A DNA stretch of 64,000 nucleotides from Ischnura elegans (Eukaryota > Arthropoda > Insecta > Odonata > Coenagrionidae), in NCBI RefSeq assembly GCF_921293095.1, contig NC_060253.1:96985073-97049072 (forward strand). Direction: 5' to 3'. The notes under the pieces are model-generated. The model saw only the letters and a program-made list of their open reading frames with translations, ran no database searches and had not been told where the DNA came from. This document shows positions 7,068 to 61,855 of the stretch, one piece after another. How positions within the stretch are numbered: position 1 is the stretch's first letter; every line of letters starts with the position of its first letter. The translations under genes and the position numbers were made by a program.

Positions 7068-7751
7068 TCAGTCACGTCTTGAGTGATTCATTAGTATTAA
7101 ATTTTAAACTTAGTTTAAATTTATGAGCTCAATATATCGCTGTGGCCAGTCTTTGCCCACGCAAAGGGGCGCCTATATGTTCGGAAGAGAGACACTCGCT
7201 GTAATACGGTTTTCACTGCTGCATATTTACTTCAAAGTGTGAGTAATCATTGACAATTTTGGGTTAAATATCGACCGCGACATGTCTGCAGCGAGTCACG
7301 CCATTCCTTTCGCGTGCCGGTGACTGCATTCGCTCACTGCGACCATTCGGACACTGAGTGGGCGGCAGGTCTGCACGGCAATAGCTAGCGGGCGGGCGGG
7401 GGGTGGCGAAGGAGCTCCAGACAGTGGAAACACGCTGTGACAGGAAATACTAATGAGGCAAGAGTGCGCAGATAAAGCGTGTCCCCTCTGAAGCCCTCCT
7501 GCGCCATCTCCAGCCCCCTGCAATGGATGGACGACACACCACAGGGGGTTGGACGCCAAATGCACAACCGGCCACTCAGGCGTCTTTGCAGTCCCCGTGA
7601 CCGCAATGGTGTGAGGGGCCCAGGCCGCCCTCCTCCATGGCGGGCCGCTCGGAGGTATCTGGGCGGAAGAGAGAGGCCCTGTGGGCAGCAGGTGGGCGCG
7701 ATGGTATAGCCTCCGAAGGGGCGTAAGGCGCCAAATGTGGCATCCGTCTAA

Positions 7752-8036
7752 TCAGACGTCTTCGTCGTCCGTGGGCGTGGTGGCGGAGCGCCCTCGGCCC
7801 CCTTCCTCGATGGTGGGCAGCTCGGAGGCGTCTGGGGGCAGCAGAGAGGCCCTGGCGGCGGGGCGTCGTGGAGTGTTGAGGTGCAGGGAGCGGGAGAGGC
7901 GGGTGAGGAGGTGAGGAGCGGGGGGCGTGGGGGTGTGGGGGCGGAGGAGGGATCGTCGGAGGCGGTCGCTCTCGGCTGGGGGCGGTGGCAGCATGCTTAG
8001 AGGCCGACCCCGGGGACGCAGCAGCTGCTCGGTCAC
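7752..8036 (-). CDS. DUF389 gene, terminal coding exon 12 (aa 478-571)
   Basis: Acceptor TTGCAG|GTG, open to TGA 7754-7752. The tail is Pro- and Arg-rich and low in complexity (LLRPRGRPLSMLPPPP, later HTPTPPAPH) and ends in the acidic TTPTDDEDV. It is GC-rich and likely disordered. The frame stays open upstream of the acceptor to 8321, but that part is intron and fold-back repeat. Confidence 0.85.
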   Translation of the reverse strand: MTEQLLRPRGRPLSMLPPPPAESDRLRRSLLRPHTPTPPAPHLLTRLSRSLHLNTPRRPAARASLLPPDASELPTIEEGGRGRSATTPTDDEDV

Positions 8037-11000
8037 CTGCAACACAAAAGTTGTGAATATTCGACCAGAGCTTAGAGTCTCCCGGCGTGTCAATCGCAGA
8101 AAGGTTTCCACCGGGTAATTTTCTCCATGTCTCCCGACGTTTCGAAGAGCAAGTCGCAAAGCGTCTGAATAGAAGATCCCCTGAAGATGAAGAGCAAGCC
8201 GCTGTACGAAACGTCGGGAGTCATGGAGAAAATTACCCGGTGAAAACCCGAAAAACCTTTCTGCATTCGACAGGAGTTCGCTTGATCTGCATCCTGCCAG
8301 GAATGCCCTCTTATAAGCCAAGAAAGATCTGATTCTTTCCGGGGGAATAGACTAAAAAAAAGTTTTCTCGGCTCTCAAGCCGGATGAGATTGTCCATTAC
8401 CTTCAACATTGGGAGGTCCGACACGTTCCTCGTGATCAGGGATTGATGCTGGTGCCATGACAGTGGCCTGAATTTATACTTATATCGCAGCTGTAGTCTC
8501 TTCCCGGTGGTAGGTGCCGATTTTAGTCCTCCAATTACTTAATAGTTTTCAGTTCTGGCTCTTAAAAAATGGACCCTCTCAACCGCCTGATAACCCGAGA
8601 AAATCTTATTCCTCCGGTATAAGAGTCAGTTAGGACTTTAGCCGTTAATATTGAAAGTTATATCTGGGTGTGCGTTGGAATTATTTTGATTTCGTTGGTT
8701 CGGTAATGAAAAGGAGACTTCGTTGACTTTATCAGTGGAAGTCAACGAAGTCTCCTTTTCATTTTCGAATATTAACTTCCACATAGTTGAGCCTAATAAA
8801 ATTGAACGAATTGCGTTGGTTATTTTTTTAAGATGTCTGTAATTGTGCGCGGAAAAGAAGAAATCCATTACCTATCTGTAAGGAGAAACATCTCTCTTTT
8901 TTCTTTCGTTTATTCCGGATATAAATAAAATATTTGGTCCTTAAATGTTGCCTTCTGTGTTTGGTTTAACCGATTAAGGGTTGAAACTCTTCAATAAACG
9001 CAAATTCAAGAGATTGTGGAGAGAACTTTGATCTGCTCCTCGATTTAACCTACCTCTGGTGTGGACTGCTGGAAGTAGCTGACCCTGCGAACTTTTTGGA
9101 AGGTGCGGTCGGCCACGGCTTCCCGCACCGCATCCTCCAGCCGCCGCTCCATCGCAGCTTGCCGCACTCCGCCTACGGACCTGCGCAATGTGAAAACGAG
9201 GAAGGCGTAATATGAGAATCAAACCCATCAAAAGACAAACTCATCTGCATACGGGCATAAAGACAACATGATGGCAAGCCTTTCGACGAAGAAAAAAAAG
9301 TAGCCCCACCAAAGAATGATGGGCGGGCGAAAAACCGAAACATCTATGAATTAAGGCCGTCATTTTCTAGATTGCCACGAGACAAGCACCGGGGTCAATG
9401 CACTCATGAGCCGTGATAAGGCGCCGGTTACCGTCATACATATTTCAGGCCTAAATGTGTATGAGAGGTAATTGCTCAGAGGTGAATTGGTGGAATAAAT
9501 TACATTTTCACCCCGTTATCGAAGGAGTGAACTGAAACGCGGTTTGTGGTTAAGACGATCCACGGTTAAGATTAAATTAAATTCATGACATTTACCGTGC
9601 TCTTGGCGCGAATTTGTTTACCGTTTCAGATTTTAAAATAAAAATAAAGTCAATATTTTAATAAGGATAAAGTCAATATAAAAAAGATTTAATTCAGATG
9701 AAACCCTTTTAAATGGGCAACTACTAAATGTTACTTTTGTTTGAAAAAAGGCAAAATTTGGTATTAGTGTTATGCTTGGATTTACTTCGACTGCTTGCCA
9801 AGGCCAGGCGATTGGCTTATGCCTTACGAGTCTCAAAACTATTGCATTTATAGATCTCGAGAGGGTTGGAGATCAAAGAATTGTTGTAAGCCTCGCTCAC
9901 AACAGCGCATTTTTGCACAACTTATCTACCAATGAATCTAATAAGTTGGATAAATTCTAATAATCTCAGCTTAATATTCTATACATTGATTTTTGGGGCA
10001 ATTACTAAGATCTAGGGCTATTCAAAAACATTGTTAACTTGCAACTGGCCAGCATATGCGGTGACTGATTTTTCCAGAGTTAATATTCAACCAAAGTCGA
10101 GTTTGGTGGCCTTTGATGTTGATTTCAACCAATAGAGATACTTTCCACATTATCCACTATAATTATTGTGAAGTTTCGTCCAGTTAAGTTATTGGGAAAA
10201 GAAATTTTGACGATAACGTCACTTAAAGAGTTTTTTTAGTGAATGTGGCTTTAATACCTATGAATGGACATATGGGTTGACTCTTCTATTTAGGCCCTTT
10301 CCATAGACTTAGCAGCGAGCCGAGTCTCATGCTTTGTGTTGTTTTCGCGTGTTTGTGGCTGGGTTCCCAAGATGGCGTCACTCACCTGGCGTTGAGGTCG
10401 CGGTTCCGGTCGCCGTCGCGAGTGTGCTGCAGCATCACGGAGCGATTGTACTCGCGGGTCACCTTGATGTCATGTTCCCAGAAGCGGCGCATGTCAGGAC
10501 TGGACGTGTAAGGTGCTGCCACCTCCTTCACCTACGCCGTAGGAAAGAAACACTCTTGTTTATTTCACTCATATCACCTCGAGACGATCTTTTTTTTCAT
10601 ACTAAGAATTTATTCAATCGTGCGCTGATTTTGATCCGCGTCCGAGGTTTTCTGTTACGTAATTTTGTTACCTTTATTCATGTCTAGTAGATGAGACTAC
10701 ACGATGAACAATTTTCAAGAAATTTGAAACATTTTGTCTTACACACAGGTTATAAGCGGCTATATGGTTGTTTTACAAACGGCATGGTAAGATCGATATG
10801 TAAGACAAAATTTTGTCTTACATGTCGATCAAAAAGACATTGTGAAATTAATTCCCGTGAACCTTGAGTAGGTACATATTTATGGCACTGGACTCTAAAA
10901 AATGGAATGCCGATACCCCCTCCGAAATTTAAGTCATGAGGTTGCGCATTTGGCCATTTTGAGAAAGATCATAAGTGTTACATCCATTTTTAAATACATG

Positions 11001-14000
11001 GGATTTCGCGCAACTTTGAAATTTTATTTCTCAGCTTATATATTGCGGGTGAGATTGCAACTTGGAAGATTAGTTAGTTGGATCTGCGGCGACAGCTTTT
11101 CCTCTCCAATAGCGTTGTTCTATCAATCGAATTTCGCGCGTTTTTAAATTTAATTTTCACGGGAGTCGGCTATGCTTGGAGGGCCCGGATGTGTACAGCC
11201 TGGATTCAATTACTCCCGTGCGCGTTGCATTGCGACCGGCATGCCATTGTTTTGAGTTCAGTGGCTCATGGTGGCAGCGCGCCATCTCGCAATTTTTCTG
11301 CATTGTGAGTGAAGAATTTGGGCAACATGTGCAGCGGGAATATTCGTTTCTTAATAATCAAAAGTTGTGAATTAGCCCCTGAAGAGCAACAAAGGGTTGC
11401 ATAAGAATTCATCGAGGGGGAGAATAAGGGCCGGATTTATATGAAAAGAAACCCTAGGCTATACCACTTATGAGGCCTATCACCTCCCGTTTTTAAGTTT
11501 TAAATTACATGAAAGATAATAAAATACATCGCTACTGTGTTATGTGAAACATGCTGTGATTGATAGTAACCTTTTAAAAAATAAATGATAGCGTTCACTG
11601 TTTTTAGAATAGTGTAATTTTTATTTTGCTACCAATTTTAATCCAGGCTCCTCTTGATCTTGCTGAGCCTAGAGCTGAAGCCTAGTTAGCCTATAGGAAA
11701 ATCCGGCTCTGTGTATGATAATGGAATTCTCAAGAGCAGGGATCTCCAAAATACGGCCCGCGGGCCGGATGCGGCCCGCGAAGGGCTTTCATCCGGCCCG
11801 CCCACTCGTTTCAAGTAGCGCGCGATTCTCGCTCGTTAAACTCTGTGAGACGCCGCTAGGAGCATTGCAGCGCTGTACTGCACATCAAAGTCGCCTTTAA
11901 CTGTTCGCAAATAAGAAATACGCCACCGGATACTTCAGGAGACGTTGGTATCGAATACTTCAGTCATCGGCAAATTTGCTATCCTGCTCGCGGGGCGATT
12001 CGGAACTTGGAATGTGGCCCTCGTGGCCTAGTAAATTGGAGACCCCTGCTCAAGAGAGATCATGAGGAGATGTCTTACCTTGAGCACGATGATGGCGGCG
12101 ATGAAGATGCAGGCGATGTTGACGAGCGTGAGGCAGAATGAGATGCAGCCGAGGATGGCGAGTTCGGAGGGTATGTAGTGCGAGTAGAGGGGCTCGTATG
12201 TAGAGGTCCAGTTGGCCAGCGACTCCCCCTCTATGTAAGGGATGCGCACTGTGTCCGGGTACATGAGCACGTTGCATGCCAGACCCCACATCATCCCCTG
12301 TGAGGAACAAAAGAAATCCATCCTGTCGTATCATGGCATTACTCTTCGCAAGAATTCGCAACTCCAGTTGTCGCTATTGCTGACTGCCTCACAACAGACT
12401 TACCCTAGGCGGCACTCACGCACACTCCAGGATTAATTGGCTGCTATATCAAGTTATTCTTTATTTAAGGCAATCGGGAGTCATTGACGTGATTATCAAT
12501 GTGGTTATGTCTGTTATTATCAATAAATCGCGATGATTAGGATTAAATTACGAATTTAAATAATGTGAAGTCTTGATAAATTGAAGGTCTGTTTATGCTA
12601 CGTCTGGATACGTCTATTTATGTCAAAAAATCCCGATAGTTAGGATTGAATTATTATGAATTTAAATAATACAAATTCTTGATGATATGATGGTCTAAGT
12701 TCAGGTTATGAATATACATACGTTATCTTGAATCTATAAATGAGCCAATGTGGCTCCTGGAAACTGATTGGTTTGGATAATCTACCTCAAGCTAGGTAAG
12801 CGGAACGCAACGGTTTTCGTTTGCGCCAATGTGAGAAGCGGCGATTCGTGCGCGTATCGCCCTCTGTCGGCGTCCATGTGAAGCAGGCCTAAATACGAGA
12901 AAGTACCCCAAATGGTAATCCGATCTGATTTTGAATGCTGCGAAAAAATATTTCTTTTCTCATTTATATGACCCAGAGACGCCATAATAGTGGAGGGCGA
13001 GGAGGGGGTATCCCTTCCCCCAAGTACGAGTGCGTGCCCCTGTACGGTTCGGGGAGTTGTCGAGGAAATGAAGTGAAACGATTGTGCTGAAGACGATCCT
13101 CGCTAAAGATTAAATGATGTTTATTAAAGCTAACGTCTCACCGTGCCCTAAGCATGCATACTTATTGTTACCATTACAGATTTTCAGTTAGTGGATAAAG
13201 TCAAGATATTCTCATTTTTCAGATTTTATGGAGATAAAACCCTTTAGATTAAACTGATTTGCACCTGATAGAATATTACTTTTGTTTTACAAAAGGGAAT
13301 ATTTGGCAACAGTGGTATTCTTGGATTTATTTCGACTGCTTTCAAACACCCCGCGATCGGCCGATGCTCTACGGGGGTGGGAATATGTTACATTTTAAAA
13401 TGCCGCGTGGGTGGGGGAACAACGATTCAAGCCGCGTTCACGACATCGCATATTTCCAAAATTAGTACACTTTTTTACACCTTTAATTCTAACTCATAAG
13501 TTGCATACATTCTAACGCCCCTTGCGGACGAAAATATTTCAATTTGGACATTCAGGTCGCGAAGGCTCTGTACCATATAACACCACAGTCGCGGATGCCT
13601 CCTGCTCTGAGCTTCCTTTGGTTGAGTCTGTACTTGCCTGATTAAGGCTTGACTGAATCAAACGCTCTAGATGAAAGTACTCGCTCTATTTAATGGACAC
13701 TCACGCAGTTGACAACAGGTGGCAGGAGCGAGGCGGAGATGGCGACGCCGATAAGGGGACCAGCGCTGCCTGCCAGCAATGCCAGCGCCACGCCAGTGCC
13801 GGACGGAAGCGCCACCAGGATTCCCGTCCACAGCGAGCGGTAGTTGCCCCTGCGGAAACGACAAAAAAGGAAAACATGGTCATTCGGTAGGCCTCTCGCA
13901 TCTGATCATGTCAAGGGTTGTATCTGGAAGAGGCACCAGTTCGATCCATTGCAGCTTGATTTTTTTAAAAGCCACTTCGGATGCAATTTTATCGGTTTTC

Positions 14001-17000
14001 CAAAATGCCCTTTGCGCGGCGATGATATAAGAACCAGGGGCGGAGCTAGGACTAAAGACTAGGGGGGGTTTCAGGTGCAACTAATACTGGTATGTGTGGA
14101 GGTATGGCATACCAGCCAGGGTAAGCGGGAGGTTGGAGGGCCCTCCGCCAGAAAAAAAATTATGATAAATGGTTCAAAATGGTGAGTTTTACGGCGTTCT
14201 GAGAGATCTTTTATTAATCCTGACACTATTCTATAAGTAATATTAATCAAATTAAATAAAATAGATTAAACTTAAAAAATTGACTGAGATCTGGGGGGGT
14301 TATCCCCCAAAACCCCCCTCGCTGCGCCACTTCTCTGGACCACCAAAGAGTCGCGCGGCGCAAGCAGAACTCGAATAAAACTGGCTAAAAAGCATTTCAT
14401 GCTGCACCACTGATAACAACGGTCCATTTAATATCAATATTTACCCAATAATATTTAAAATCATGACGAATTGCGTTGAAAAGCCTTCTACTCGGAAAAC
14501 TTAAATGATTGCTGGCATGCACGCTTAAACCATGCCGTTGACTACGCACCACTTCGAGGGAAACCAAGAAGTACGAGAGTTGAGCGAAGCTTTGATGAAA
14601 AATTCGTAATAAATGCCCTGAAAACCTTCTGGGCGGCTGAATATATTCAAATTGAGTATGTTTAAAGAAATTTTGGGTCATGAATAACACCTTAATGATT
14701 TCATTAGCAGGTAAGGCAGCTGCCGTTTACATGCGAGAGATAGTAATATTTATGAAATTTTTATGAATATAAATTAAATCTTCTATATTATTTCTACTGT
14801 GTAGATACCTTTTTCTCAACTTATACGCAACCAAACTCTACAAATGAGGTAACAAAATGCGCAGAATTTATCGGAGAACATGCGACGGCATATCTTACTT
14901 CCTAAATATTGCTATTGTTTCCTAAAATTGGTTTTTAAATAATTTAGAAAAAAAACAAAAACAAAAAAATAAAACAAAAACCGGTAAATATTCCTGACGT
15001 TAACGGCGCACAAACTGATACATTTGTTCATTTGCAACAATTACTCGCATTCTTTAAATAACTTTTATCAAAATGCGGCTGATTCCACATTCAAGTCTCC
15101 TGTTGATACGTGAGTATGAGTCATCATGTGCGTTTAACAGAGGATAGTGTAATTACTTCCAATGTTGTGTTTAAAGAGGTCCTCTGACCTCAATTTGTAC
15201 GTGAAAATTCCAATTAAATTTGTACATTAGACCCTGCCTTTTTTTATACATTTTAAAATTAGAAACGCGCCTATCCCTCTGTGGACCTGCATTGAAAAGA
15301 GTGGGGGAAGCCCGCTGGGAGCTGGCGCAGCACTTTCGTTAACTTTATTTGTAGTATTGAAAAATTAAAATTTCAAAGTTGAAAATCGATATTTTTTGCA
15401 TTTAAAAGTGTTATTTTGATATTACAGTTGAATTTCGAATTGAAAATTTAATTTTAGCGAGTAATCATGAACTGTATCTGTAATTCAAAATTAGGGAGCA
15501 ATTCCTACTTTGAATTTGATGTACAATTGAAATGTATTTCGCTTAACTCTGGCCTATCCTTCATTTCGAAGGAGAACCGAGTCGATTATGGTGACTGCAA
15601 CTCACCTGCCCTTCATCTCGGTGGTGGGCCAGTCGGCAGTTCCCCACGGATTCTCGGCGCTGCCGATGATCAGGCCGAAGATGAATCCGAAGACGAGACA
15701 GAGGCCGAGGCCAGTGAGCTCCGTCCGGACGCCCATCAGCTGCAGACGCCGGTCTGCGATCACCACGCCGAAAGTGGCCGTCACGATGGGACCCTGTCAC
15801 ACGGAAATCATTCATTCACATGTCTGCCAGAACAGAATTCATTCTTCTTCTGGTCGTCGGCAAATTAATCGGTGAATAAAAATAAAATACAATATATCGT
15901 ATGTAATATAAATCGTATAAAAGATAGATAATAAGCTTTTTCCAAAAACATCATAAAATGTGACTAAATGTAAAACATAAGCTTTTCATCACTCGGAGAA
16001 CAATATATGAATACTGATTTGTTTTATTATAAATGTGTTTAGAAGAGCCTGATGGATGATCGATAAGTTTTGCCACGCAATATTGGTATATAAACCTAAT
16101 CATAACCAACGCTTTATTATCCGAATGATGGAAATATTAATTTTTTACTTTTTAGTGCATTTTATGCTATTTTTGGAACAAGTATATTCTTTAATATTTT
16201 TTCTTTTTAGTGTTGAATAATGCAATCGGTTAAACCAGAACCATTGTTTAAGAAATTTATGCCAAAAAATTATAACTAATGCTACCTATTGAAAAAATTA
16301 TTTTCCATGTGTAAAGTTAGATAATTATCTTAATTAGACAATTGAATAAAATTTCAAATGTATGATTATTAAATATTATATTGTCATCAGAAACGAGCAA
16401 GTGTGAAAAATTTCAAGCCAATTCGACGATGAGAAGTGGGTTAAAAATCAATGGCAAGATTCTACCGATGAAACAGACGCAGAAAGTTAAGAAAAATGAT
16501 GTGAAAATTAAATTTACCTTAACAGCGATTCGAACCCAGGCCTCCCGATTGCCGGTCAAGTATGCCAACAATTACACCACCAAGCCATCTTATTCGATCG
16601 TGAATCTCAGACTTTCGATGTGAATCACAGACTTCCAAGGTGAATCTCTCTTCTGAATTGAGACCCATTTCTCTCCGACAGTGGCTTAAGAAGCACGACC
16701 ACCGTCTCTTGTGCCACAATGTGGACTTAAGTTGTCAACACTTAGTTCGGTAAATATTGTCAGAGATTGGTCTTGAAAGAAGAGGGCTTGTGGTGGCGTA
16801 ACTGGTATCACACCTGACCATCGTTCGGAAAATCCAGGTTCGAATCTCGGTTAAGTCAAATGATTTTTCCAAGGCGAAATTTATCCATGATGTTAATTTA
16901 CACCCGTGAGGGTGACTGAGTACAGCGTTATTCGTTCGCTGCAGTGCTTTGTGATTCATGGGTGGTTGTGGTTAACTAGTCATATTCTCCATTTAATGCA

Positions 17001-20000
17001 AGAATGGCTTCTCTCCGTCACCCAATCGTGTGTTTCATGGAATTTAGTCTTCCAGATGTAGTCGAGATTTTGGAATAGATTTTCCCGTGGTGGTCAGTTA
17101 CGCATGGATCTGTGTGCAAATAAAGTATCACTCCCTTTCCTTCCATCACCAATCATAAGTTCCCCAAATTACTCAACTCGACGGCAGGATTTGGATTTGT
17201 GAGGTCAGGTCTTTTCCCAGTAGCCGCAAGAATCTCACAGATTCAGGGTAGGTGGGTTACAGCCATTCTTTGGCCTACCTCGAACTTCAAGGATTACCAA
17301 TTGGGAGTGTTATATGGCTTTACCCGGGATTTGAACCACGGGCTGTTCGATCAGTTGCTCAAAGCCACATCCACTGGGCCACCACGCTCCCCTCTACCGA
17401 TAGGGAGAATAACTGAGAATTCTCCATTTCATTAATTATTTGGTGAAAAAGTATTGAAAATATTTTATAATCATATGTTTTTAAATAAATAAAAGATCTT
17501 TCCAAGTAGGCTTGGTGGGAAATATTTCCAAGTGGGAAAAATTCCAAGGTGGGAAATAAAAGATCGTAGCACTTTTCCACAAGATTTTTTAATGCGCACA
17601 ACGCGTTTCGGCTCACTGAGCCATCATCTGGTACAAGACACTGCAAAATATTTGAAAATCTCCTTTATACCCTTGAGAAATATAGTTGGGGAGGATTTGA
17701 CATCTTTGAAGGAGGGGGTGGGAACGGGCATACAGAGTAGAGACAGTGGGAAAAGATACAACTACGGGATGTGGAAGCCGCGTTGGAAGGAGGGCTCTAG
17801 TCATAACTGTAAAATAACGACACGTGGGGAAGAACCGTAGAAAAACTGGAGGGGGGTTGAGAAGAGTGAAAAAAGGGGGGGCGTTAGGGTAAAAAGAGAG
17901 GCCGCGTATCTTTAGAAAGGGAGAGGAGTAAGTAGCGACGCAGGAAAAGAGGCGGGGGTGAGGAGTCCCTTTGGGTTAGCTGAGAAGGAGTGAAAGTTAG
18001 CGGGGGTACCGGGAGGAAATTGCCAGCAAAAGAAAATGGTCAAACACAATACGAAGAGACGCTGGGCGGACGGGAAACACCCTGTGGATGTTGGGGTCAG
18101 TTAAGGCGTGGGTGAAAAAAGAATTTGATCATTTGTTTTCGGGAAGGGGAAGGAGAGGAGAGTGGGTGAAAAACACTTGCTCATTCATGAGCATATTCAT
18201 ATCACTCTGTACAATTTCGAATTGTTCTAAAACATCAAGTCTTGTGCCCTTACTTTCGAAGTGTAGAATTTCAAGTTGAAAATGACAACAATGCAAAGTC
18301 TATAGTAAGTGTTTGGCGAGAAGTGACGTTTCACCTCCATTTTTCCAGCACCCTTTATGTTCTTTCATTCTGGTAATGAAACTTATAATTATATGTAAAG
18401 CTTTGAAGTGATCACAAAATCCGGGAATTTTCGACTTTGGACGAGTCCATTGTATGGTCCTACCGAGACCTCAGAGAAAATCGTATTGGCAAAGTGATGA
18501 CAACATCACTCCCGTTCTCTTCAGAAACGATGATCATGAGGCAGGCATTGAAGTTAATCTCTTCGCAGATATGAAGTTAGAGCCGGGTGAGGAATATACG
18601 GTCTGAGTGGATGCCGGAGATGTCTACAGCGGTATCAACTATGGGCGGCGGAGACAATGACCGCATGAGCTTCAGACTTTACAACTCGCGCGACACCCCA
18701 GCTGCACCCGATTAGAATTTATCTTCGATATATTACGCAAACAATCAGTTGGACTCTTCCATAGAAAATTGGGCTCGGGGTAATTGTGGTTCAATTCGAG
18801 TGTGGAGTTGGTGTGAAGTGGATCTCGAATTGTTTTCTTACCATGAGCGGTGAGATGAGCATGGCCGCCACGATGTTAACAGAGCTGTTTTCCACGAGGC
18901 CCATCGCTGCCACCATCCTGCGAAAGAATCACGTGATCAATTGACCGATAATCCAGCGCACTAGGCCGTGCAAGGGCGGTGAAAAAAATCGTAGAAAAAG
19001 AGGGAAATCGTCGACAACGCTGTTTCGAATAACACTGAATTGGTGGGAAAACCTGCGAGAGGAAACAAAATGTTCGATTAATAAATTCTTCTCGGGTTCT
19101 CCATTGGTTAAAATTCTTCATAGCCGACGTTTCAATGGTCGATTAGTACATCGTCCTCAGGGTAGGTGATTGTCAAATTGTTATCTGGAAGTTAGGTTTC
19201 ACGCGATTGGTCGCCACAGTGGACTGGCTTTTTGACAGCCATACCGGTGTGATCCTTTGATTTTTCCAAAATTTCAAAACGGATTTCCAGGTATTGTTAA
19301 TGGCATAGCCTGTCTAACGATTGCAATTGTGACCACCCAATCGAATTTCTTTGGCATCACTAACAACCCTATCCCAAGATTATGCGGATCACGTCAATGT
19401 GTTGGCATCATCGAATCTGTTGGCGTGGTCATGTTGGATGCCATGTCCAGCGATGGCTAAGTTTTGTGATTACCCCATTCTTAGGTTCCGGTTATACTCT
19501 TTCAGCCTAGATTTTAACTTTCGATATTTTGGCTGTCATCAGTCATCCTCCTCCGCGGGCTAAATACATAGATACCTTGCATTAAATACATGTTCGCAAA
19601 ATTTTTTTTACGTACTTTAAGGCATTAATTGCCTGTAGAGAAACAAAAACCCAAGGTATAATCAATTGAATAGGGCATCAAAAGCTCGAAGCCGGACTTG
19701 CTATGAAATGTTTTAGACCAGAGCATCGAAGCTCACTGAATATTTGAGGAAAACTTTTATGGAAATCATACGATTGAGGTGTGAGGGAAAAATTTGGAAG
19801 TTAAATTTAACATAATTTTGATATTGATTAACGTGCATGTCATTACACGTAAGCTTTACTTCAATACTATAACTTAATAGGCTAGCAGAAGTTGCAATTT
19901 TCGTACGGTTATAAATATAATATATCTGTTATTTTATTCTTCATCACTATTTCACAGTTATTGCCAGAAAAGCAGAAACTTTCCTGCAGTTTCTTAACTT

Positions 20001-23000
20001 ACAGCTTTTGATGAGACCATTCAAGGTTAGGTCACAAGCGTTTTTCTTGAAGAAGTGTCAACGACTCATAAGATCGTACGCAAATTTATGATACCTGATG
20101 GTCATTAATTGAATAGGACAAACAAAAAATGATGAAATACAGATATTTGGGGCACACCTCATTTCACTCATATGATTTTAGATCAACTGTCATTTTATTC
20201 CATCATAATTTCTTGTGAAATAAAAAATTATGATGTTAATTCCTTACCTCGAATCCCATCATTCTACATTAAATTATGGAGAATTGTATATTCTACGTTT
20301 TCAAAAGATAAGGAAAGGTCCAGCGATGAGAGCGATAACATCCACATAATACCTTGCGACAGCCCCTAAATGATTCAAGACCCCAACGCCCAACGAGGAG
20401 ATGCTGCTGAGGTCGGAGAAATAGAGTATAGTAAACTTGAGCTTATCAGTTTTCGAAGGCTTAATCAGCGCTCGAAACCAAAATCTCTTATTGTAAAAAA
20501 CTGAAAATCAAATGCCATCAAGAGTTTAAGTGACAACTCCAGAAAAATAAAAGAATCCGTAAAATAGCTTAAAATTAGATTTTTTTTTCGTGATCAATTT
20601 AGTTTGCTGATATTGCTACTCTTAATGAAAGAAAAATTCTAAAAGGCAGGGAATTTCTTACGGCACCATGGTTGCGGTGGAGGCAGGAGTCATCAGACTT
20701 GTGGCTGACCGAAGTGACAGTGCTGCACTCACCCGGCCGTGACGACAAGCAGGACAAAGTCGAACGTTAGCTCCCCGCTGCTTCGCACTCCGTCCACCAC
20801 CTGTGCCACCGTCAGCTTGGAGCGCACCGAATCCACGAATTTGGCCCATGCGGTCCCTTTGGCGCTGCCGTCGGCCGGACCCCTCTCGTTGCAAGGGAAA
20901 AAAATGACTCATTAGTTGACTATTCATGTGGATTCAAGTACACGATAACTCAAAGGTCAACAGAAGCATCTCGGTGTGAAGGATATTTGTAAAATCTAGT
21001 TTTTTTTGAGAATGTATCGACAAAAATCAAATGTCAAACCTCGAAAGCGAAATAATAGGCTTTGAAAGGTTTCCTGACTGCGCAATAGCAACGAAATTGT
21101 ACGGATATAAAAATACAAAAATGATTTGGATATTGTGCGAATTTCTATTTTATAGCAAAGGAAAGGGCCTCACATTTCATTTTAATTAAAAAGATGCAAC
21201 TGAAGTTGCGTGCCTGTAGAGAAAGAATACCAACTTTTACTGTGAGGAGTGGTAAAATTATGGAGATTTCAGTCACATTACTGGAGACACCCTTTCCTAC
21301 GGATAAAACCTTGTTGCAGTGAAATGATCCCCACTGCTGTTTTATTAAGTCATATTAATCGTGGGTTTTGAATTAATTGTAATTAATAATAATATTTTTA
21401 AGCAATAAATGCTCGCTTGATCCTTGCAACGCCTGGCTAATGGCGTTTGGGGCGGGTTGGAGAATCGTGGGTTCACTTGATCGTGTACTTACTCCACTCC
21501 GTCGCTGGTGGCCTCGTCCTCAATTCCCTCGCTTTGCTTGAACACGCTGCACGGCAGCACGCTGAAACGAACAACGAGGAAATGTAAGCAACATTTTGAA
21601 GGCCAAAATCTCCAATTGATAGGCGAGTTTATCCTTTGTTTTTTTCATGAAATTTCACACGATTGTCTCATTTTTTCATTGGTGTAATTGGTATTATGAT
21701 ATAATTTTCAGAGAGTTAATTTTAAACTAGAAAGAGAAATTGACAAGGGTTGAAATACACTGAACCGAGGTAAAATCCTCTCTCAGTGGTTAACTTTTTA
21801 TGTATTCAAATTCTTGTATTTCCGGAGAATATGGTATTCACTATGATGATATATGGAACAAAACTTTTTTTCTTGAAGGATTATTTCACCCGAATTCAGA
21901 CTGATATTGACCCTGTATATACCACAATTTGATGCAAATTGAAGTAGCTTTTTACCTCCTCAAATTTCACATTTTGTGCTCCAAATATTCCTGTTAACTA
22001 TTTTTCAAATACAATCTTAAGTTCTTGTTAACATAGTAAGAACGCATACCATTTATTACCAGCTGCATTGCTCAAAAAAAGTCGAACGCAGTCAGGGAAA
22101 TATAAAATGTCCTCCGCCATGATTGAAAAAATACGACTGAATTTATTTCTTAGGAAAAACCACCAATTGGGCGCTTTGGCGCCGCAAGTAAAATTCTGAA
22201 ACAAAGCACTCTCAATAATATTAAGACATCCTTTTGTTATTTATTTTGCTTCATGATATTAGCTCAAAAAGTTATTCCAAAAATTATCATTGTGGACGAG
22301 GTTCATGGGAGTGGCTACTGTTAGCTTCGCAGCTGTTTGTCGGTTCTGGATACGCACCTGACGAGAGAGTTGAGTCGCCTGCCGAAGCCCAGTTCGGAGA
22401 GGAAGTGTAGTGTGTTCTCGCACTGGTCGCCAGCGCTCACGGGAAACGTCACCTGCGAACCGAAAATATTTAGATTATTCTACCTCTTTTAAGTCTTGTT
22501 TCATCTCAATGGGTGCCTTAGAGACACGTAATCCAGATTTGGACATTTCTAGCCTCTTCTTGGTAGGTAAAATTAGTGCAGATAATGACGTAAGAAGATG
22601 AATTTGAAACGATGTACAATTTTTGGGAATTCGAGGTCATAGGAGTGGAATTTATAACTTTTTTTCGAGCAATATTCTAGTTGTGAAGAAAGTCGTTCAG
22701 TTAACAAAAGAGAATCACTCTCGCTGCAATTTGCGTAATTTTTCGTAAAAATGGTCATCACGATGCATGAACCAATGGTTCATTGGACCACGTGAACTGA
22801 TTTATTTCTTTCAATTACCGCTATTCGTACAGTGGTGAGACGAAGGTATCCTCTCGGCACTACCATAAACCTTTTTGCATAGTCACCATTGTATGTACGG
22901 ACATGAACCGGAAACAGTCATATGTAACAGAGGTGTTTGACATCAACTGATTTTGACGTGACTTCGTGGAACGAGGGGATATTCATGGTAGAACATAAAA

Positions 23001-26000
23001 ACACAATACAATTTCATAAACTTTATGTTGCTGTCGATACTAGTCGACAGCAACGTAAAGTTTATGGAGCTGTACTGTACTTTTTTGTTCTGCCATGAAA
23101 GAAGAGTTTGTTTTGGTCTGAAACAAGGTATTTTGCACATATATTATTTAGTCCAAGCATTGAATACCAACTAGGAATGCTATTAGGAATGTGTTATTAT
23201 TATCATGCTATATATATTAAGCTTATATCATAGAGTCTGTTTTATGCGATATATACTAGAATATACAATAGGCTGATATCGTTTGCGATGTTGTTTTTAA
23301 TTGCCATTTTGGCCAGTTTGTGTAGAAGATCAATTAAAACACTTCTTGCGCATATGTTTGTGCAATAAAGTTGTACATTCTTTAGTGACAGAATTTTCAA
23401 TGAGGTTTATTCTAAGTACACGAGCATTAGGCGCATTCGATGAGATCACCAATGCCGGAAAACGGAGATTCAGTTGACATATTGGGATAGTTTTCGGGTA
23501 CAGGAAATGCAGAATTGGTTAAAATAGACAATTTTCCTAAAATTACCAACAAAGCACTATTTTTAAGCTCAACATCATCTTGCTTCAGCGATTCATATAA
23601 TGATGGTGGAAAATATTACCGTTTCACTCAATCATTTCCAGGTGATGATTCCAGGGATGGTAATCCCATCCCTTTTTCCTTCACTCAGCGCATTCCTTTT
23701 TCCGTCACTGAAACCATCGCTGGCACCGTCTTTCGACCAATCAGAACATGAGGTCGCTTACAGCGATTATAATGACACGCTTTTAATTGAATCACAGTGG
23801 TCAATACGGTAAGTGACGAAATAAGCGAAGGAAAAAGGGATGGTGGGAATAATTGTGTGATTCAAAAAATTGAGGGGTAGAGTGATCACTCTTACCCCTG
23901 TCCCTGGAAAACCTATCGCTGGAGATATCACTCTGAAGGACGGAAAAAATGATCCCGTGATTCAGGCTTTAAAATAAACCACTTGCTCTCGTTTGATGTT
24001 TTCATGAAATGCTCCTCAAATCATGACTAGAAGCCATTTATGCATTTTTGGCTAGAGCAGGTACACCTACCTGGTAGAAGTTCCCGCTGCGGCATTTGCT
24101 CCATACAGCAGCAGTGTCGAGGGAGAGGCTGGACAGCAATTCCTCCAGCACCTGCCAACGAACAAAATAGTCGATCAAATCATTGCTGCGGTTCAAAAAG
24201 GAGAGCCTCTTTTTCAAAATTTAAATTTGTATATATTAAATACGACTCAAAAAGGTTTCCCAGCACTCTTGGACGAAGTTTAACTTTCTCTTTTGTTGTA
24301 TGTTATTCTGAGGCCATTGACCTGTAGTAAGGTAAGTAATATGGCAATAGATGAATATCCATACCTTTCAATCAGAGGAGTGAATTAAGTAGTTAACGAA
24401 TTTTTATTTACCATGCTTGATCATTATGGCACAATGCTATCCTATCCGTATAGTTGGAAGTCATTAGTATTGTTGCCTACTTGACGCGTATGCAAGATTT
24501 CAGTGAGGAGCGTTGGAAAACTATGACAACCGACCGTGCTAATGCGAGCACAAATTTCAATAATATCGTATTAGCTTTATGTCTAAGTGGAAGGTCTGTA
24601 AAATACTGACTATTCAGAAACAAAATTTATCTCCCGATGTCCGCTTACTCAAAAACTCGGCAAAAAATCCCGGAACGCGTCTTGAAACAGCACATAATCT
24701 ACGTATAATATAGGTACCAAAGATGATAAAATATCTACAGGAAAGTTGAAATTTTCCCTCTTTTAAGAACATATTCCTTTTTTTGAAACTGCTGAAACCA
24801 TTTATGCAAGCTCGATAGTCGGAAATACATTATATTTAATAATTTCTCACATTATAGAGTTCTGGAGTATGTATGTACATATAACTTATTATTTTCCGTC
24901 GAATTTTGGAAGAGCAGGTGAAAAACATTCATTGATAAATATTTTACTTTCAATTACTTTATATTTCACTTTTTACAAGAACTGAGATTTATTTGCTTGA
25001 ATTGTGTATTTTTTCGTTGTAACTGATGCTTGTCTTTCAGGGATTGATAATAATTCAATGAATATTTTAAATTAAAGTCGGCGAAACAAGAAAATGATTT
25101 GAACTCCTGTGGGACGATGCGCTTGCAGTAACGATGCTGGCAAAGTGGGAAATGTACGTTTGTAAGTGCTTAACAAAAATGTCAAACATGTGCGAAATTT
25201 CGAGGAAAACATCCAGGAAAGCATCGGTTGAAAATGTAAGTGGGTAAGTGTAACTGGTAGGAAAATGAGCAGACTTTTATAATTCGACGCAGGCGGCACG
25301 GCGTCCGGGCGTAATTTGTTTTGGAACACGATACACGCTTCGGCGTCGACGAAGATGATTTATACTGTGCGAATAGATACCTATTAATTAAATATTGAAT
25401 TCTATGAATTAATTAGTGCAAAACTAAGTTGAATCCTACTACTGAGTATATTCTAGGAGACGCACGATCAAAAAGTAAAAAAGATATGAGATTTCGGTCA
25501 TAAATAGAAAAATTCAATTTTGTGACTCGCATAATACTATTAAAGATTCCGCGAAGGGAAAATTAGATCCCGAAAGAAGGTATTTTTCGACCCACGCTAA
25601 TACCAGAGCCTAAATATGACCATGATTCACCCATAATAGTCGGTAATCCTTTTTACTGAATATTTAAATGCGATGCGATGGTGGTGGGCGTAACATGGTG
25701 AAACTCCTTCATGATGCACAAAGGTTAAGAAAAGACTTAGCTGTTTCACAAAATAAGGTTTATTTTGTGAAACAGCTAAGTCTTTTCTTAACCTTTGTGC
25801 ATCTGAATATTTAAGTTGAATAGATTGTTAAAGTAAATGCTCACTAAATTGTGCCCACGTAAGCCCCATCGTTAGGGTGTAGGTATAAGGAGAACCAAGG
25901 GTGCAGCTAGGAATTAAGGCTGGGGGGGGGGGGGGGGAGGGTTAAGGTGCAACTAATACCTGGGTGTGTGGGGGTATGGAATACCCACCAGGATAAGCGG

Positions 26001-28009
26001 TAGGTGCGAGATTATTAGTAAATTGAGGTATTTCAAGATAGATAGTTCAAAATGGAGAGTTTTACGGCTTTCTGAGGGATATTTTATTAATCCTTACAAT
26101 ATTCTATTAGTAATATCAATCCAACCAAGTAAAATGGATTAAACTTAAAAATTTCTCTGAGCTCTGGGGGAGGGGTTTATCCCCCTAAAGCCTCCCCTCG
26201 CTGCGCCACTGAGGAGAAACACACCAACGGTGCTGGACCTCTGCATCGCTTTTCGTGGTGAGTGCGCGTTTAATGTGATGGAATGTGCCTTATTATTCTG
26301 GGACTATTTATGTATCGGGGGGAGAATAATAAAGGGGCGACCGAGCAGAAGGTGGCTGGAGAGTGTGAAATCAGGGTATTACATAAAGGAGGCACCTGTC
26401 CCTCCCGTCCGAGCCTGATTTTCGTAGCCACTTTGGGCTTCTTTTAATCAGTATAAAAAAAATCCACAGCGCAGCAATTAGTGAAGAGCGATCTATTTAT
26501 TGTCAGTATTTGCTCAATAATGTTTACAATCTACATCTGCATAATACCCTGCAAGCCGCCTAAAAGGCGTGTGGCAGGGGATGTTAGGACACCAGCCGTT
26601 TACAGCTAAAAAAAGTGCTCTAACGAAATTGGGACTAGCGTTTATTAAAGTCCTTTATGGTTCGGGGGAAAAACGAATTCCCATATCTATCCGTCCGGCA
26701 AAACATCTCTCTTAATTTATCGCTTCTATCGGACCTGGAAATATAGTGTGGCTCTTATATCATGTTCTCTGTGTCACTCTTAAAGATGTCCATTCTCAAT
26801 TGTTCAAGCAATCTAAGCCTAGCGCGCAGCCTCCGAGTCTCCAGCGGCTCCCAGCCTAATTCGCAAACGAATTGTGAGGAATTACGTTGAAAACTATGAA
26901 GTTGATGCATCGCATCATCACGAATATAAATTTCGGTGAATATTCGCATTTATAGCTTATTTCTCCGAAGAATCGTATCGCTCTGCCCGTCATCAACGCG
27001 AGGGAAGACTTTTGCTAACACATTTGAATACACGGCGAGTGATAACACATCTAGAGATCGACTCGGAAATCCCCCATTGTAATATTTGTGATTTGGAAAA
27101 TGACCTGAAAAAAAACTGTGAGAGTGTGTGCTGTCGAGAGATCCCTGGAGAGGAATAGTTGAGGAAGCACCAGCCGTATTCGGATTGTGTCGTCGGTAAA
27201 GCTGGTGTGCTTCAACCTTGCGCGTGAGACCGGGTTTCCGAATGCACTCGAAGTGTGCCCGAGTATCGAAGTCGATTGCCCAAGCATATAGCCTGTGGCC
27301 TAACCTTTTATCATCCATCAAATCTGGTTTGAGGAGTAATTGAGTTATAGGGGTGGGCAGAACTCTGATTTGTGTGCCGAAAACGTGTTATACATTCAAT
27401 TAAAAACACATTATATAATAAAAGAAAGTCTGGCCAAAGAAGTAACTTTGTAATATGTGACATTTAAAAAAGGCAGCAGCATTATACGAAGATCCTACAC
27501 AAACGCTTGATTAACCGAACTTATCAAATGAATAAGACAAAAATATAGTTACAAGGTAGTGTGATACCGGCATTTTAAATCTATATGTGTACATATTTAA
27601 GTAAGTATTTAGTTATGTAATCAATTTCTAATCCATTTCAACTAAAGAGAACGTGTGTAAATATTCGAGCCTCCAAGTCTCCCAAAAATTCTTCGAGAAT
27701 GCTCACTGCTACGTCATCACTACGTCACGCATCCTTGACAATTTCGAGCACGGCTATAGGTTCTTTTAATGCTGTAGTGACAGTTGGTAAGGTTAGGTAA
27801 GGATGTGACGCGTATAGTTAAATCCATATCATTAGAGGCGTGATTATCCATGATGGATTCTGTGCCCCGCTTACCTTCTCCATGGGTGGCGGCTGCTGCG
27901 GCGTCTCCTCCTTGGTGCGGCCCGTTCTGTGAGTGCGGCCCGCGGGCGGCCCGGATGCCGCCTCATAGGCTGCCGTGGGCACGCAGACGAGGAACACGAG
28001 CCCAGACAT
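7752..28009 (-). CDS. DUF389 family multi-pass membrane protein, 12 coding exons, 571 aa
   Basis: Exons, 5' to 3' on the minus strand: 28009-27875, 24151-24071, 22452-22358, 21561-21493, 20882-20733, 18917-18842, 15793-15606, 13849-13705, 12297-12079, 10531-10386, 9180-9054, 8036-7752. Every boundary is GT-AG and the phases agree throughout, giving 571 codons plus TGA. Residues 1-115 form a beta-alpha-beta-beta-alpha-beta pattern (GLVFLVCVP, VLEELLSSL, YQVTFPVS, LHFLSELGFG, LVSVLPC) like the soluble N-terminal domain of prokaryotic DUF389 proteins. Residues 165-386 hold about six membrane segments with the signatures AAMLISPLMGPI (194-205) and GVAISASLLPPVVN (299-312). Residues 387-571 are charged, then Pro/Arg-rich, and probably cytosolic. 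The family has no established biochemical role, so the function is unknown. The family call is firm; exact ends of exons 1 and 5 are less so. Confidence 0.88.
8095..8264. repeat. Fold-back repeat with hammerhead-like core, next to exon 12 acceptor
   Basis: Two inverted arms of about 50 bp (8095-8144 and 8207-8264, a few mismatches) flank a spacer with CTGAAGA at 8181-8187; GAAAC follows at 8208-8212. The CTGANGA plus GAAAC combination is the conserved core of hammerhead ribozymes, which are known from Penelope-like elements and some SINE-like repeats. Stem II is not convincing here. The arm begins 59 bp upstream of the exon 12 splice acceptor. Confidence 0.6.
8705..8763. repeat. Perfect inverted repeat, 25-bp arms
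   Basis: Arms 8705-8729 and 8739-8763 are exact reverse complements with a 9-bp spacer. It lies in intron 11 of the DUF389 gene. There are no terminal duplications or coding content, and its origin is unknown. Confidence 0.85.
9054..9180 (-). CDS. DUF389 gene, coding exon 11 (aa 435-477)
   Basis: Acceptor GCGCAG|G and donor GAG|GTAGGT, 127 bp. It encodes a highly charged, helix-prone stretch (MERRLEDAVREAVADRTFQK) and then SYFQQSTPE. No domain is recognised. Confidence 0.87.
10386..10531 (-). CDS. DUF389 gene, coding exon 10 (aa 387-435)
   Basis: Acceptor GCGTAG|G and donor GCCAG|GTGAGT, 146 bp. It encodes a hydrophilic post-membrane segment (KEVAAPYTSSPDMRRFWEHD ...) rich in Arg and Asp. 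It is probably cytosolic, with no recognised motif. Confidence 0.88.
10791..10830. repeat. 40-bp near-perfect palindrome
   Basis: Two 20-bp halves meet with no spacer and one mismatch pair. It lies in intron 9 of the DUF389 gene, 260 bp upstream of exon 10 in the transcript sense. No known site type fits. Confidence 0.8.
11426..11711. mobile_element. Probable hAT-like miniature element, degraded
   Basis: The left end GGGCCGGATTTATATG and the inverted right end AAATCCGGCTCTG resemble hAT-type termini (CAGGGCCGGATTT). No clear 8-bp target duplication is left and the inside is AT-rich and non-coding. It lies directly beside the better preserved element at 11737-12048. Confidence 0.42.
11737..12048. 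mobile_element. hAT-like MITE with perfect 8-bp target duplication
   Basis: A 312-bp element starting CAGGGATCTCCAAAATACGG and ending TTGGAGACCCCTG, so the termini are inverted. It is flanked on both sides by CTCAAGAG (11729-11736 and 12049-12056). The 8-bp duplication is diagnostic of hAT-type transposition. The inside is GC-rich and non-coding. It lies in intron 9 of the DUF389 gene, with the duplicated site ending 22 bp from the exon 9 edge. A relative lies at 61856-62053. Confidence 0.87.
12079..12297 (-). CDS. DUF389 gene, coding exon 9 (aa 314-386)
   Basis: Acceptor CTCACAG|G and donor AAG|GTAAGA, 219 bp, phase 0. It encodes the end of membrane segment 5 (GMMWGLACNVLMY), an extracellular or lumenal loop with two Asn-X-Ser/Thr-like contexts (NWTS is a canonical sequon), and the last membrane segment ISFCLTLVNIACIFIAAIIV. 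A hAT-like insertion lies just downstream of its donor. Confidence 0.93.
12380..13700. other. Intron 8 of the DUF389 gene, no element recognised
   Basis: AT-rich intronic DNA between exons 9 and 8. Two short related stretches (about 12500-12580 and 12605-12690, both with CGATnnTTAGGATT and AATTTAAATAAT) suggest an old local duplication. No open frame with similarity was seen. Confidence 0.5.
13705..13849 (-). CDS. DUF389 gene, coding exon 8 (aa 265-313)
   Basis: Acceptor TCCGCAG|G and donor TGC|GTGAGT, 145 bp. It encodes membrane segment 4 (GILVALPSGTGVALALLAG) and the second family signature GVAISASLLPPVVN at aa 299-312. Prokaryotic members carry nearly the same string (GVAISASLLPP). Confidence 0.94.
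14035..14332 (+). mobile_element. hAT-like MITE, family A copy 1
   Basis: Starts CAGGGGCGGAGCTAGGACT and ends CTCGCTGCGCCACTT. The inside matches 25896-26211 and, inverted, 31325-31623 over most of its length, for example GTGCAACTAATACTGG and AGGGTAAGCGGGAGG. The target duplication has decayed. It lies in intron 7 of the DUF389 gene and is non-coding. Confidence 0.75.
15606..15793 (-). CDS. DUF389 gene, coding exon 7 (aa 203-265)
   Basis: Acceptor TGACAG|G and donor GCAG|GTGAGT, 188 bp, ending in phase 2. It encodes GPIVTATFGVVIADRRL, then membrane segment 3 (GLCLVFGFIFGLIIGS), then a loop with PWGTADWPTTEMKGR. Confidence 0.93.
16510..16600 (-). mobile_element. tRNA-derived SINE fragment
   Basis: On the minus strand GGCTTGGTGGTGT (A-box-like, 16561-16577) is followed by GGGTTCGAATCG (B box, 16526-16540). 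This is the internal RNA polymerase III promoter arrangement of tRNA-derived SINEs. No tRNA acceptor stem can be formed, so it is not a tRNA gene. Confidence 0.65.
16780..16890 (+). mobile_element. tRNA-derived SINE
   Basis: TGGTGGCGTAACTGGTA is an A-box-like sequence and GGTTCGAATCTC a B box. The body AAATGATTTTTCCAAGG matches the copies at 59945 and 60930, which carry AAATGATTTTTTT. The family is the same as the neighbouring minus-strand piece. Confidence 0.72.
17305..17400 (-). mobile_element. tRNA-derived SINE
   Basis: On the minus strand GTGGCCCAGTGGATGTGG (A box) is followed by CGTGGTTCAAATCCCGGG (B box). Spacing is tRNA-like but no full cloverleaf is formed. It lies in intron 6 of the DUF389 gene. 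Confidence 0.7.
17592..17635 (-). ncRNA. Hammerhead-ribozyme-like motif
   Basis: On the minus strand CAGATGA (17630-17624) is followed by a stem GGCTC-AGT-GAGCC and then GAAAC (17609-17605). This gives a core near the hammerhead consensus CTGANGA-stem II-GAAA, with one core change (U4 to A). It is probably the decayed end of a Penelope-like or related retroelement. Cleavage activity is unlikely because of the core change. Confidence 0.45.
18842..18917 (-). CDS. DUF389 gene, coding exon 6 (aa 177-202)
   Basis: Acceptor TTCGCAG|G and donor ATG|GTAAGA, 76 bp. It encodes the end of membrane segment 1 (MVAAMGLVENSS) and the family signature VNIVAAMLISPLM, which continues in exon 7 as GPI. This signature is the strongest single identifier of the family here. 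Confidence 0.93.
18918..20650. other. Intron 5 of the DUF389 gene
   Basis: AT-rich, no coding similarity. It contains one copy of the recurring ACGTTTC...TCCTCAGGG motif (19126-19162). No SINE or terminal-repeat element was recognised in the remainder. Confidence 0.5.
19126..19162 (-). ncRNA. Hammerhead-like core motif
   Basis: On the minus strand CTGAGGA (19160-19154) is followed 20 bases later by GAAACGTC (19133-19126). The 7-base and GAAAC parts match the hammerhead core exactly. A weak stem could form from CGAT and ATCG between them. No long flanking arms were seen. It is the third copy of this motif in the window. Confidence 0.4.
20733..20882 (-). CDS. DUF389 gene, coding exon 5 (aa 127-177)
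   Basis: Donor GCCGG|GTGAGT is clear. The acceptor GAGAG|G at 20883-20884 is the only nearby AG that keeps the frame (150 bp). It follows a TTTTTTTCCC tract. The exon encodes an amphipathic linker (KFVDSVRSKLTVAQVVDGV), which prokaryotic relatives have before the membrane domain, and the first membrane segment LTFDFVLLVVTAG. Confidence 0.82.
20940..21490. other. Intron 4 of the DUF389 gene
   Basis: AT-rich intronic DNA between exons 5 and 4. I see no element or open frame worth naming. Confidence 0.55.
21493..21561 (-). CDS. DUF389 gene, coding exon 4 (aa 104-127)
   Basis: Acceptor TTTCAG|C and donor GGA|GTAAGT; 69 bp, phase 2 in and out. It encodes SVLPCSVFKQSEG and an acidic linker. The VSVLPC segment formed across the exon 3-4 junction is the last strand of the N-terminal domain. 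Confidence 0.87.
22358..22452 (-). CDS. DUF389 gene, coding exon 3 (aa 73-104)
   Basis: Acceptor TTCGCAG|GTG and donor CAG|GTGCGT, leaving two bases (AG) for the next codon. It encodes strand 2 (VTFPVSAG), helix 2 (ENTLHFLSELGFG) and RRLNSLV leading into strand 3. Confidence 0.9.
22460..24060. other. Intron 2 of the DUF389 gene
   Basis: AT-rich. It contains the long imperfect inverted repeat at 22982-23099. A pyrimidine-rich patch at 23660-23720 and related wording at 23870-23950 (CCTGGAAAACCTATCGCTGG) have no identified origin. No gene was seen. Confidence 0.5.
22982..23099. repeat. Long imperfect inverted repeat, arms about 56 bp
   Basis: Left arm 22982-23037 and right arm 23043-23099 pair with a 5-bp spacer. 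The innermost 20 bp (CATAAACTTTATGTTGCTGT and complement) show one mismatch and the outer part several. No target duplication or coding content is visible. It could be a fold-back element. Confidence 0.75.
24071..24151 (-). CDS. DUF389 gene, coding exon 2 (aa 46-72)
   Basis: Acceptor TTGGCAG|GTG and donor CAG|GTAGGT, phase 0 at both ends, 27 codons. It encodes VLEELLSSLSL through GNFYQ: helix 1 and the start of strand 2 of the N-terminal domain. Confidence 0.88.
25714..25802. repeat. Perfect 42-bp-arm hairpin
   Basis: Arms 25714-25755 and 25761-25802 are exact reverse complements with spacer AGGTT. Flanking DNA is unremarkable and there is no target duplication. Perfect identity over 42 bp in an intron implies a recent origin (snap-back replication or slippage) or an assembly join artefact. 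It lies in intron 1 of the DUF389 gene. Confidence 0.9.
25896..26211 (+). mobile_element. hAT-like MITE, family A copy 2
   Basis: A 316-bp element with termini CAAGGGTGCAGCTAGGAAT and CTCGCTGCGCCACTG. It is flanked by AGGAGAAC (25888-25895) and AGGAGAAA (26212-26219), a 7/8 target duplication. A poly-G tract follows the 5' terminus. Non-coding; it lies in intron 1 of the DUF389 gene. Confidence 0.83.
26525..26950 (-). mobile_element. Non-LTR retrotransposon fragment (C-terminal end and 3' tail)
   Basis: On the minus strand the frame reads [20 protein letters not shown], then, after an in-frame stop, SDRSDKLREMFCRTDRYGNS and FFPRTIKDFN. This is the typical C-terminus of a non-LTR reverse transcriptase (LGWxxLExRR ... 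FFPRTIxxWN). It is followed by a 3' tail (GCCGCCTAAAAGGCGTGTGG) at 26552-26575. The fragment is 5'-truncated and interrupted by a stop. Related fragments lie at 32455, 58870 and 61390. Confidence 0.8.
26966..27870. other. Intron 1 of the DUF389 gene, unassigned
   Basis: A 123-codon open frame on the minus strand (27321-26950) abuts the retrotransposon fragment. It shows no similarity that I recognise and may be upstream retroelement sequence or chance. The rest is AT-rich with no feature. Confidence 0.4.
27875..28009 (-). CDS. DUF389 gene, coding exon 1 (aa 1-45)
   Basis: Starts at ATG 28009 and ends AAG|GTAAGC, phase 0. An in-frame TGA lies upstream at about 28059-28057, and this ATG is the first after it. 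The start MSGLVFLVCVP could be mistaken for a signal peptide. In this family the first strand of the N-terminal domain sits at this point, so I read it as cytosolic beta-strand 1. It is followed by a Pro/Thr/Arg-rich insert (aa 17-45) that prokaryotic members lack as far as I recall. Confidence 0.72.
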
Positions 28010-31316: not shown

Positions 31317-31324
31317 ATTTGGAG

Positions 31325-33561: not shown

Positions 33562-33576
33562 TGTGCCAATTTTACT

Positions 33577-59370: not shown

Positions 59371-59413
59371 CGAAAGTAAATAGTCATAACAAAGCACCGC
59401 ATATAACAAGTTA

Positions 59414-61850: not shown

Positions 61851-61855
61851 GGGGT

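Follow-up and report, generated by a model that had tools for sequence, protein, structure and literature searches.

An intact, intron-rich DUF389 gene of Ischnura elegans: likely Asgard affinity and possible likeness in fold to aquaporins and formate-nitrite transporters

Aquaporins and formate-nitrite transporters (FNTs) are oligomers with one pore per protomer, and the aquaporin-like fold is built from two inverted repeats of three helices each, in which helices are broken. The DUF389 membrane proteins, which are spread over many bacterial and archaeal phyla, appear only in passing and as unknowns in the available parts of the literature searched: as a gene of unknown function over-expressed in macrolide-resistant pneumococci (PMC6563660), as an unknown gene selected by a classifier (PMC10672838), as a flanking gene (PMC7674036), as a domain close to a cluster of biosynthetic genes (PMC11888242) and, under the name TIGR00271, among the features of alkaline, high-calcium soils in a soil survey (PMC11237643). 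Within those same parts we found no report of a DUF389 function or of an animal member, in line with an earlier note, made from the DNA letters alone, that had held the role of the family not to be established. Here we describe a DUF389 gene on the minus strand of a 64,000-nucleotide stretch of the odonate Ischnura elegans (assembly GCF_921293095.1, contig NC_060253.1, positions 96,985,073 to 97,049,072), the whole of which we call the window and number from its first letter.

The gene runs from 28009 to 7752 in 12 exons, whose borders were set by hand and checked by script, and their in-frame join has a coding length of 1716 bases including the stop codon, giving a protein of 571 amino acids. 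The exon number, start, stop and protein length proposed in the earlier note were thus all reproduced with a continuous frame; exon 5 with an AG-consistent acceptor occupies 20882-20733, which gives the 571 residues. All 11 introns are bounded by GT..AG, measure 610-3723 nucleotides and have the phases 0,0,2,2,2,0,2,0,0,2,0 in order, and an in-frame stop lies 17 codons 5' of the start codon. GC content is 64.9% in the exons, 80.8% at third codon positions (GC3) and 39.1% in the introns. Because the gene holds eleven spliceosomal introns, bacterial contamination is ruled out, as the earlier note had argued, and what we observe is an intact, intron-rich eukaryotic DUF389 gene. Its exons are given below, with TM standing for transmembrane helix; support for exons 1, 2, 4 and 10-12 comes chiefly from the frame, the splice sites and the composition, without residue-by-residue confirmation by a homologue.

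Exon 1, 27875..28009, minus strand: the start codon, a predicted initial beta strand (GLVFLVCVPT) and an insert rich in Pro and Thr that no homologue among the relatives compared covers; based on the in-frame ATG, the donor GT and the upstream in-frame stop.
Exon 2, 24071..24151, minus strand: predicted first helix of the N-terminal alpha/beta domain; based on AG/GT sites and frame.
Exon 3, 22358..22452, minus strand: VTFPVSAGDQCENTLHFLSELGFG; based on alignment with archaeal N-terminal domains.
Exon 4, 21493..21561, minus strand: end of the N-terminal domain and linker; based on AG/GT sites and frame.
Exon 5, 20733..20882, minus strand: amphipathic helix and most of TM1; based on splice sites and alignment.
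Exon 6, 18842..18917, minus strand: end of TM1 and first half of the broken helix TM2 (VAAMLISPLM); based on alignment.
Exon 7, 15606..15793, minus strand: GPI..., second half of TM2, TM3 and the TM3-TM4 loop; based on its own DUF389 match, E 3.8e-8.
Exon 8, 13705..13849, minus strand: TM4 and TM5 with GVAISASLLPPVVN; based on its own DUF389 match, E 3.1e-9.
Exon 9, 12079..12297, minus strand: TM5-TM6 loop insert carrying an NWT sequon at residue 342, followed by TM6 and its invariant Asn at residue 373.
Exon 10, 10386..10531, minus strand: charged, predicted cytosolic tail; based on AG/GT sites and frame.
Exon 11, 9054..9180, minus strand: charged, predicted cytosolic tail; based on AG/GT sites and frame.
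Exon 12, 7752..8036, minus strand: Pro/Arg/Ser-rich tail and stop codon; based on the AG site, frame and stop.

The joined protein matches the Pfam family DUF389 (PF04087) at E 2.1e-30 with 106 bits, against a gathering cut-off of 23.9, over model positions 1-136 of 137, and no other Pfam family matches it at E 1. Two of the 10 single open reading frames (ORFs) scanned match DUF389 unaided, those of exon 8 and exon 7. Chance is ruled out for the DUF389 core. The family identity named in the earlier note was confirmed by this search, and so were the two family signatures, AAMLISPLMGPI spanning the exon 6/7 junction and GVAISASLLPPVVN within exon 8. Two NCBIfam models scored below their cut-offs, TIGR00341, a hypothetical equivalog, by little (89.8 bits, E 2e-25; cut-off 94.75) and TIGR00271, a hydrophobic domain, by far (85.2 bits; cut-off 146.5); since the first of these was missed, we assign the animal protein to the broader Pfam family only. 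No chain of the Protein Data Bank (PDB) matches the joined protein by sequence at E 10, and the 33 chains found with the family profile (best E 0.066), mostly ribosomal S3, are considered chance. The gene is a new member of a family already known but functionally unstudied. The findings point to one stand-alone membrane protein only and lend no support to the suggestion that an animal membrane system not yet described might be at hand. We take PTHR20992 of InterPro/PANTHER, named after a Drosophila cDNA, to be this family, and animal members are presumably in the databases already.

Conservation in the family is concentrated in the membrane. Taking a column as highly conserved when 85% or more of 84 prokaryotic rows agree, we counted 31 such columns, and all 31 fall inside the membrane domain (residues 125-301 of a Thorarchaeota relative, L005), where they sit at helix breaks, at adjoining helix positions and at one Asn of TM6. 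The window protein keeps 24 of them and differs at 7. His is absent from these columns, and their single acidic residue, the TM4 Asp present in 74 of the 84 prokaryotic rows, is replaced by Gly in the window protein. Compared with the prokaryotic family, the animal gene adds the TM5-TM6 loop insert with its NWT sequon, a long Pro/Arg-rich tail and the introns.

The earlier note had also placed a ferredoxin-like fold before the membrane part. An N-terminal alpha/beta domain is indeed modelled in the Thorarchaeota relative, at a pLDDT of about 75-80, but in the window protein itself such a domain is weakly supported: comparison with archaeal N-terminal domains gave a score of 18.86 and an hhalign probability of 3.1, and 1 of 200 shuffles scored higher. 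In the bacterial DUF389 model an alpha/beta domain stands at the C-terminal end. Within the membrane domain the two halves align mutually over 84 columns, bringing SPLMGP of the first half onto LMPP of the second, with a score of 21.7 that 0 of 200 column permutations reached. This repeat is modest, however, with one permutation at 21.41 and an hhalign probability of 11.5-12.8, whereas the halves of FNTs, used as a positive control, gave 41.4 (41.2 with rechecked sequences) and a probability of 90.6; circular shifts of half 2 made no useful null, since they preserve the alignable part. Because Lys and Arg lie mostly in predicted cytosolic segments, with almost none in the two short outer loops, their distribution agrees with N and C termini in the cytosol. 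The net charge gives a less clear picture than Lys plus Arg, averaging -0.58 in the inner segment before TM1 and -0.12 between TM2 and TM3, and in the window protein alone the TM4-5 loop has no Lys or Arg while the outer TM3-4 loop has three. The TM5-TM6 insert with the NWT sequon is predicted to be outside or luminal, where sugar attachment would be possible.

Evidence on the fold comes from models of two relatives, one archaeal (Thorarchaeota) and one bacterial, from which the animal fold is extrapolated. Both models have a six-helix membrane domain whose best structural realignment is with aquaporins and FNTs; for the archaeal model the highest realignment Z, 10.9 at a root-mean-square deviation (rmsd) of 3.6 over 175 residues, is with the aquaporins, the family of AqpZ. 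The models share with the FNT channels HSC, PfFNT and LciA the six helices and a first repeat with a broken TM2; we know of no N-terminal sensor domain of the DUF389 kind in FNTs. The archaeal model may be alike in fold to the aquaporins (MIP family), but the animal protein lacks their NPA motif, which is absent from all 571 residues, and matches neither the MIP nor the FNT Pfam profile at E 1.

Several results weigh against this likeness. The realignment Z stays below 13 throughout, a range in which helical bundles may match by shared arrangement only. In Foldseek neither model has a match at E 0.001; the archaeal model reaches a query-normalised TM-score of at most 0.32 among the 50 rows listed, and for the bacterial model zinc/manganese CDF transporters fill ranks 1-32, the first FNT following at rank 33 with E 0.052. 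In neither model does DSSP resolve the second helix break as such. The DUF389 core profile gave hhalign probabilities of 0.2 and 0.08 against FNT sequences (0.07 with 11 FNT sequences) and of 0.14 against AqpZ, that is, no similarity. Membership of the FNT or aquaporin families by sequence was thus rejected, the profile comparisons being without detectable similarity, and we regard the resemblance as a likeness of predicted fold, not as membership.

The CDF matches bring in another explanation, which we think unlikely, namely that the protein is an energy-coupled transporter, for example a CDF-like one for metal ions, with a cytosolic alpha/beta domain, and that its resemblance to aquaporins and FNTs is a coincidence of six-helix packing. 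The 32 leading hits of the bacterial model (ZnT7, ZnT1, YiiP, SLC30A10 and others) have E values of 0.0032 to 0.040, the archaeal model also brings up ZnT chains, from E 0.57 upwards, and in the available part of the soil survey (PMC11237643) TIGR00271 is associated, alongside a calcium/proton exchanger, with alkaline soils high in calcium. The CDF superpositions are poor, though, with query-normalised TM-scores of 0.15-0.28 and an rmsd above 11 Å. After realignment of the bacterial model 0 CDF chains stood among the 50 entries listed, which still leaves room for a CDF fold. Coupled transport is also spoken against by the conserved columns themselves, which include no His and only one acidic position, occupied by Gly in the window protein.

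We tentatively favour, at somewhat less than even chances, a channel through which small solutes pass passively and which carries an alpha/beta sensor domain on its cytosolic side. The animal protein would adopt the same fold as its modelled relatives, and a pore would lie inside each protomer of an oligomer, with the SPLMGP and LLPP signatures forming a mid-membrane constriction. The cargo would be a small neutral or weak-acid solute; it would move passively, and a coupled pump seems less likely, because no highly conserved column places an acidic or His residue in the animal membrane helices. The N-terminal PII/ACT-like domain would sense a cytosolic signal and gate the pore. The steps from predicted fold to channel and from channel to gate are inferred.

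Two further considerations count against this proposal. The function of the animal protein may have shifted, because its TM4 Asp is Gly, and the gene neighbours of the relatives offer no hint of a substrate. From the 147 ORFs picked around the loci (L002, L075 and L076 yielded none), 76 on the same strand were scanned, and of the Pfam families, 25 of 135 being listed, none is represented in more than 5 of these ORFs, the commonest being peptidase S46/trypsin and polysaccharide synthase. An operon partner was rejected on this count. The cytosolic modules of the family suggest yet another role, that of a membrane-anchored sensor or scaffold in which the membrane part would hold the oligomer together and the cytosolic domains would act, without a conducting pore. 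These modules do vary, from the N-terminal alpha/beta domain of the Thorarchaeota protein and the C-terminal one of the bacterial model to universal stress protein (Usp) domains in 11 of 85 members and OmpA domains in 4 of 85; but all 31 conserved columns lie in the membrane domain, a moderate argument, since the other domains are not common to all members, and we judge a pore-less scaffold improbable.

Relatives for a tree were taken from a scan of one genome per species covering 587 stretches; the best 80 of 519 relatives were kept, so that closer ones may exist. A quick tree held 85 rows, leaving out a truncated sequence (L047), and a careful tree 68 rows, the window protein and 67 prokaryotic ones, leaving out 17 close relatives of other rows; two rows are Asgard, and the window protein is the only eukaryotic one. 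The lowest E-values among the best 80 of 519 are those of the Asgard contigs, Thorarchaeota (L005, 4e-27) and Njordarchaeota (L006, 4e-19), and blastp of the whole protein against the retrieved loci ranks L005 first, with a best match of 37.6% identity over 186 amino acids, and L006 eighth. A tree with prokaryotic members had been proposed in the earlier note; in the careful one the window protein groups with L005 (98/93) and next with L006 (98/94), and the quick tree shows the same joining. At L005 position 139 the window protein, L005 and L006 have Ala, in place of the Gly found in the remaining 82 of the 84 prokaryotic rows. In approximately unbiased (AU) tests of groupings named after inspection of the tree, placement of the window protein with 10 euryarchaeal rows (p-AU 0.029) and an Asgard pair without it (0.045) were disfavoured, while placement with 55 bacterial rows (0.146) is compatible with the data. 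The window protein, L083 and L006 were flagged as long branches in the quick tree, and L006 in the careful tree. An Asgard affinity of the window protein is likely but not settled, because of the long branches, the two Asgard rows and the lack of another eukaryote.

The Thorarchaeota protein (L005:1922-3070), from a contig of ordinary uninterrupted ORFs, resembles the animal one as its tree sister and, in its model, by the N-terminal domain and six membrane helices; it differs in having no loop insert, no introns, a shorter tail and Asn at position 133 where the animal protein has Ser. Every relative found is prokaryotic, although no eukaryotic collection was searched; this would suit a gene that came in recently from bacteria, or a copy in decay, better than a working gene of the animal. 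Against such an origin stand the eleven GT..AG introns, the frame open throughout, the GC3 of 0.81, the 24 of 31 conserved columns retained and a long branch outside every sampled bacterial group; we consider it very improbable. Taking fold, gate and ancestry together, DUF389 would be a third family to share the aquaporin/FNT fold, and animals would retain an Asgard-like protein of it, a never-studied small-solute channel gated by a cytosolic PII/ACT-like sensor domain, inherited or acquired from archaea, a combined proposal that we offer as speculative and hold to be doubtful as a whole.

Other occurrences of the family were noted in the same searches. By tblastn, relatives at 30-36% identity stand in 14 plasmid records, of which 13 are haloarchaeal and one is cyanobacterial. 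In the viral collection the single-protein query gave 21 pattern matches with no relative confirmed, and the family-profile query matched 8 loci. A Euryarchaeota metagenome-assembled genome carries tandem DUF389 genes (L011:5674-6969 and 7453-8748), which are mutual closest relatives in the careful tree.

Elsewhere in the window, a sodium/calcium exchanger exon (35544-35894, minus strand; Pfam Na_Ca_ex, E 5.8e-14) lies upstream of the DUF389 gene in the same orientation, with a weak PDB match to a mitochondrial Na/Ca exchanger (E 0.0091); together with the intron structure, this neighbour agrees with an animal source of the DNA. The minus-strand ORFs 39758-40240 and 49906-50397 may represent further exons of a K-dependent exchanger, which they resemble; neither has a Pfam match, and 49906-50397 has no PDB match. 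Dispersed repeats, 85-93% alike, occupy 32905-33576, 14035-14335 with 31322-31623, and 11949-12054 with 61843-61948, one of them directly downstream of exon 9, and resemble the copies that mobile elements leave in animal genomes. On the plus strand, a 177-codon open stretch at 59034-59564 with an ATG-initiated peptide (MPKVNSHNKAPHITSYSKSS...) could be the first exon of another gene; it matches no Pfam family above the cut-off.

In summary, DUF389 is widespread in bacteria and archaea and is found here in an animal-type gene, yet its function is unstudied in the available parts of the literature searched. Should the membrane domain prove to have the aquaporin/FNT fold, the experiment to begin with would be a simple flux assay, and the animal gene would lend itself to knock-out in an insect that carries it. 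Should the Asgard affinity survive wider sampling, the protein would be a further membrane protein tying animals to archaea and not to bacteria.
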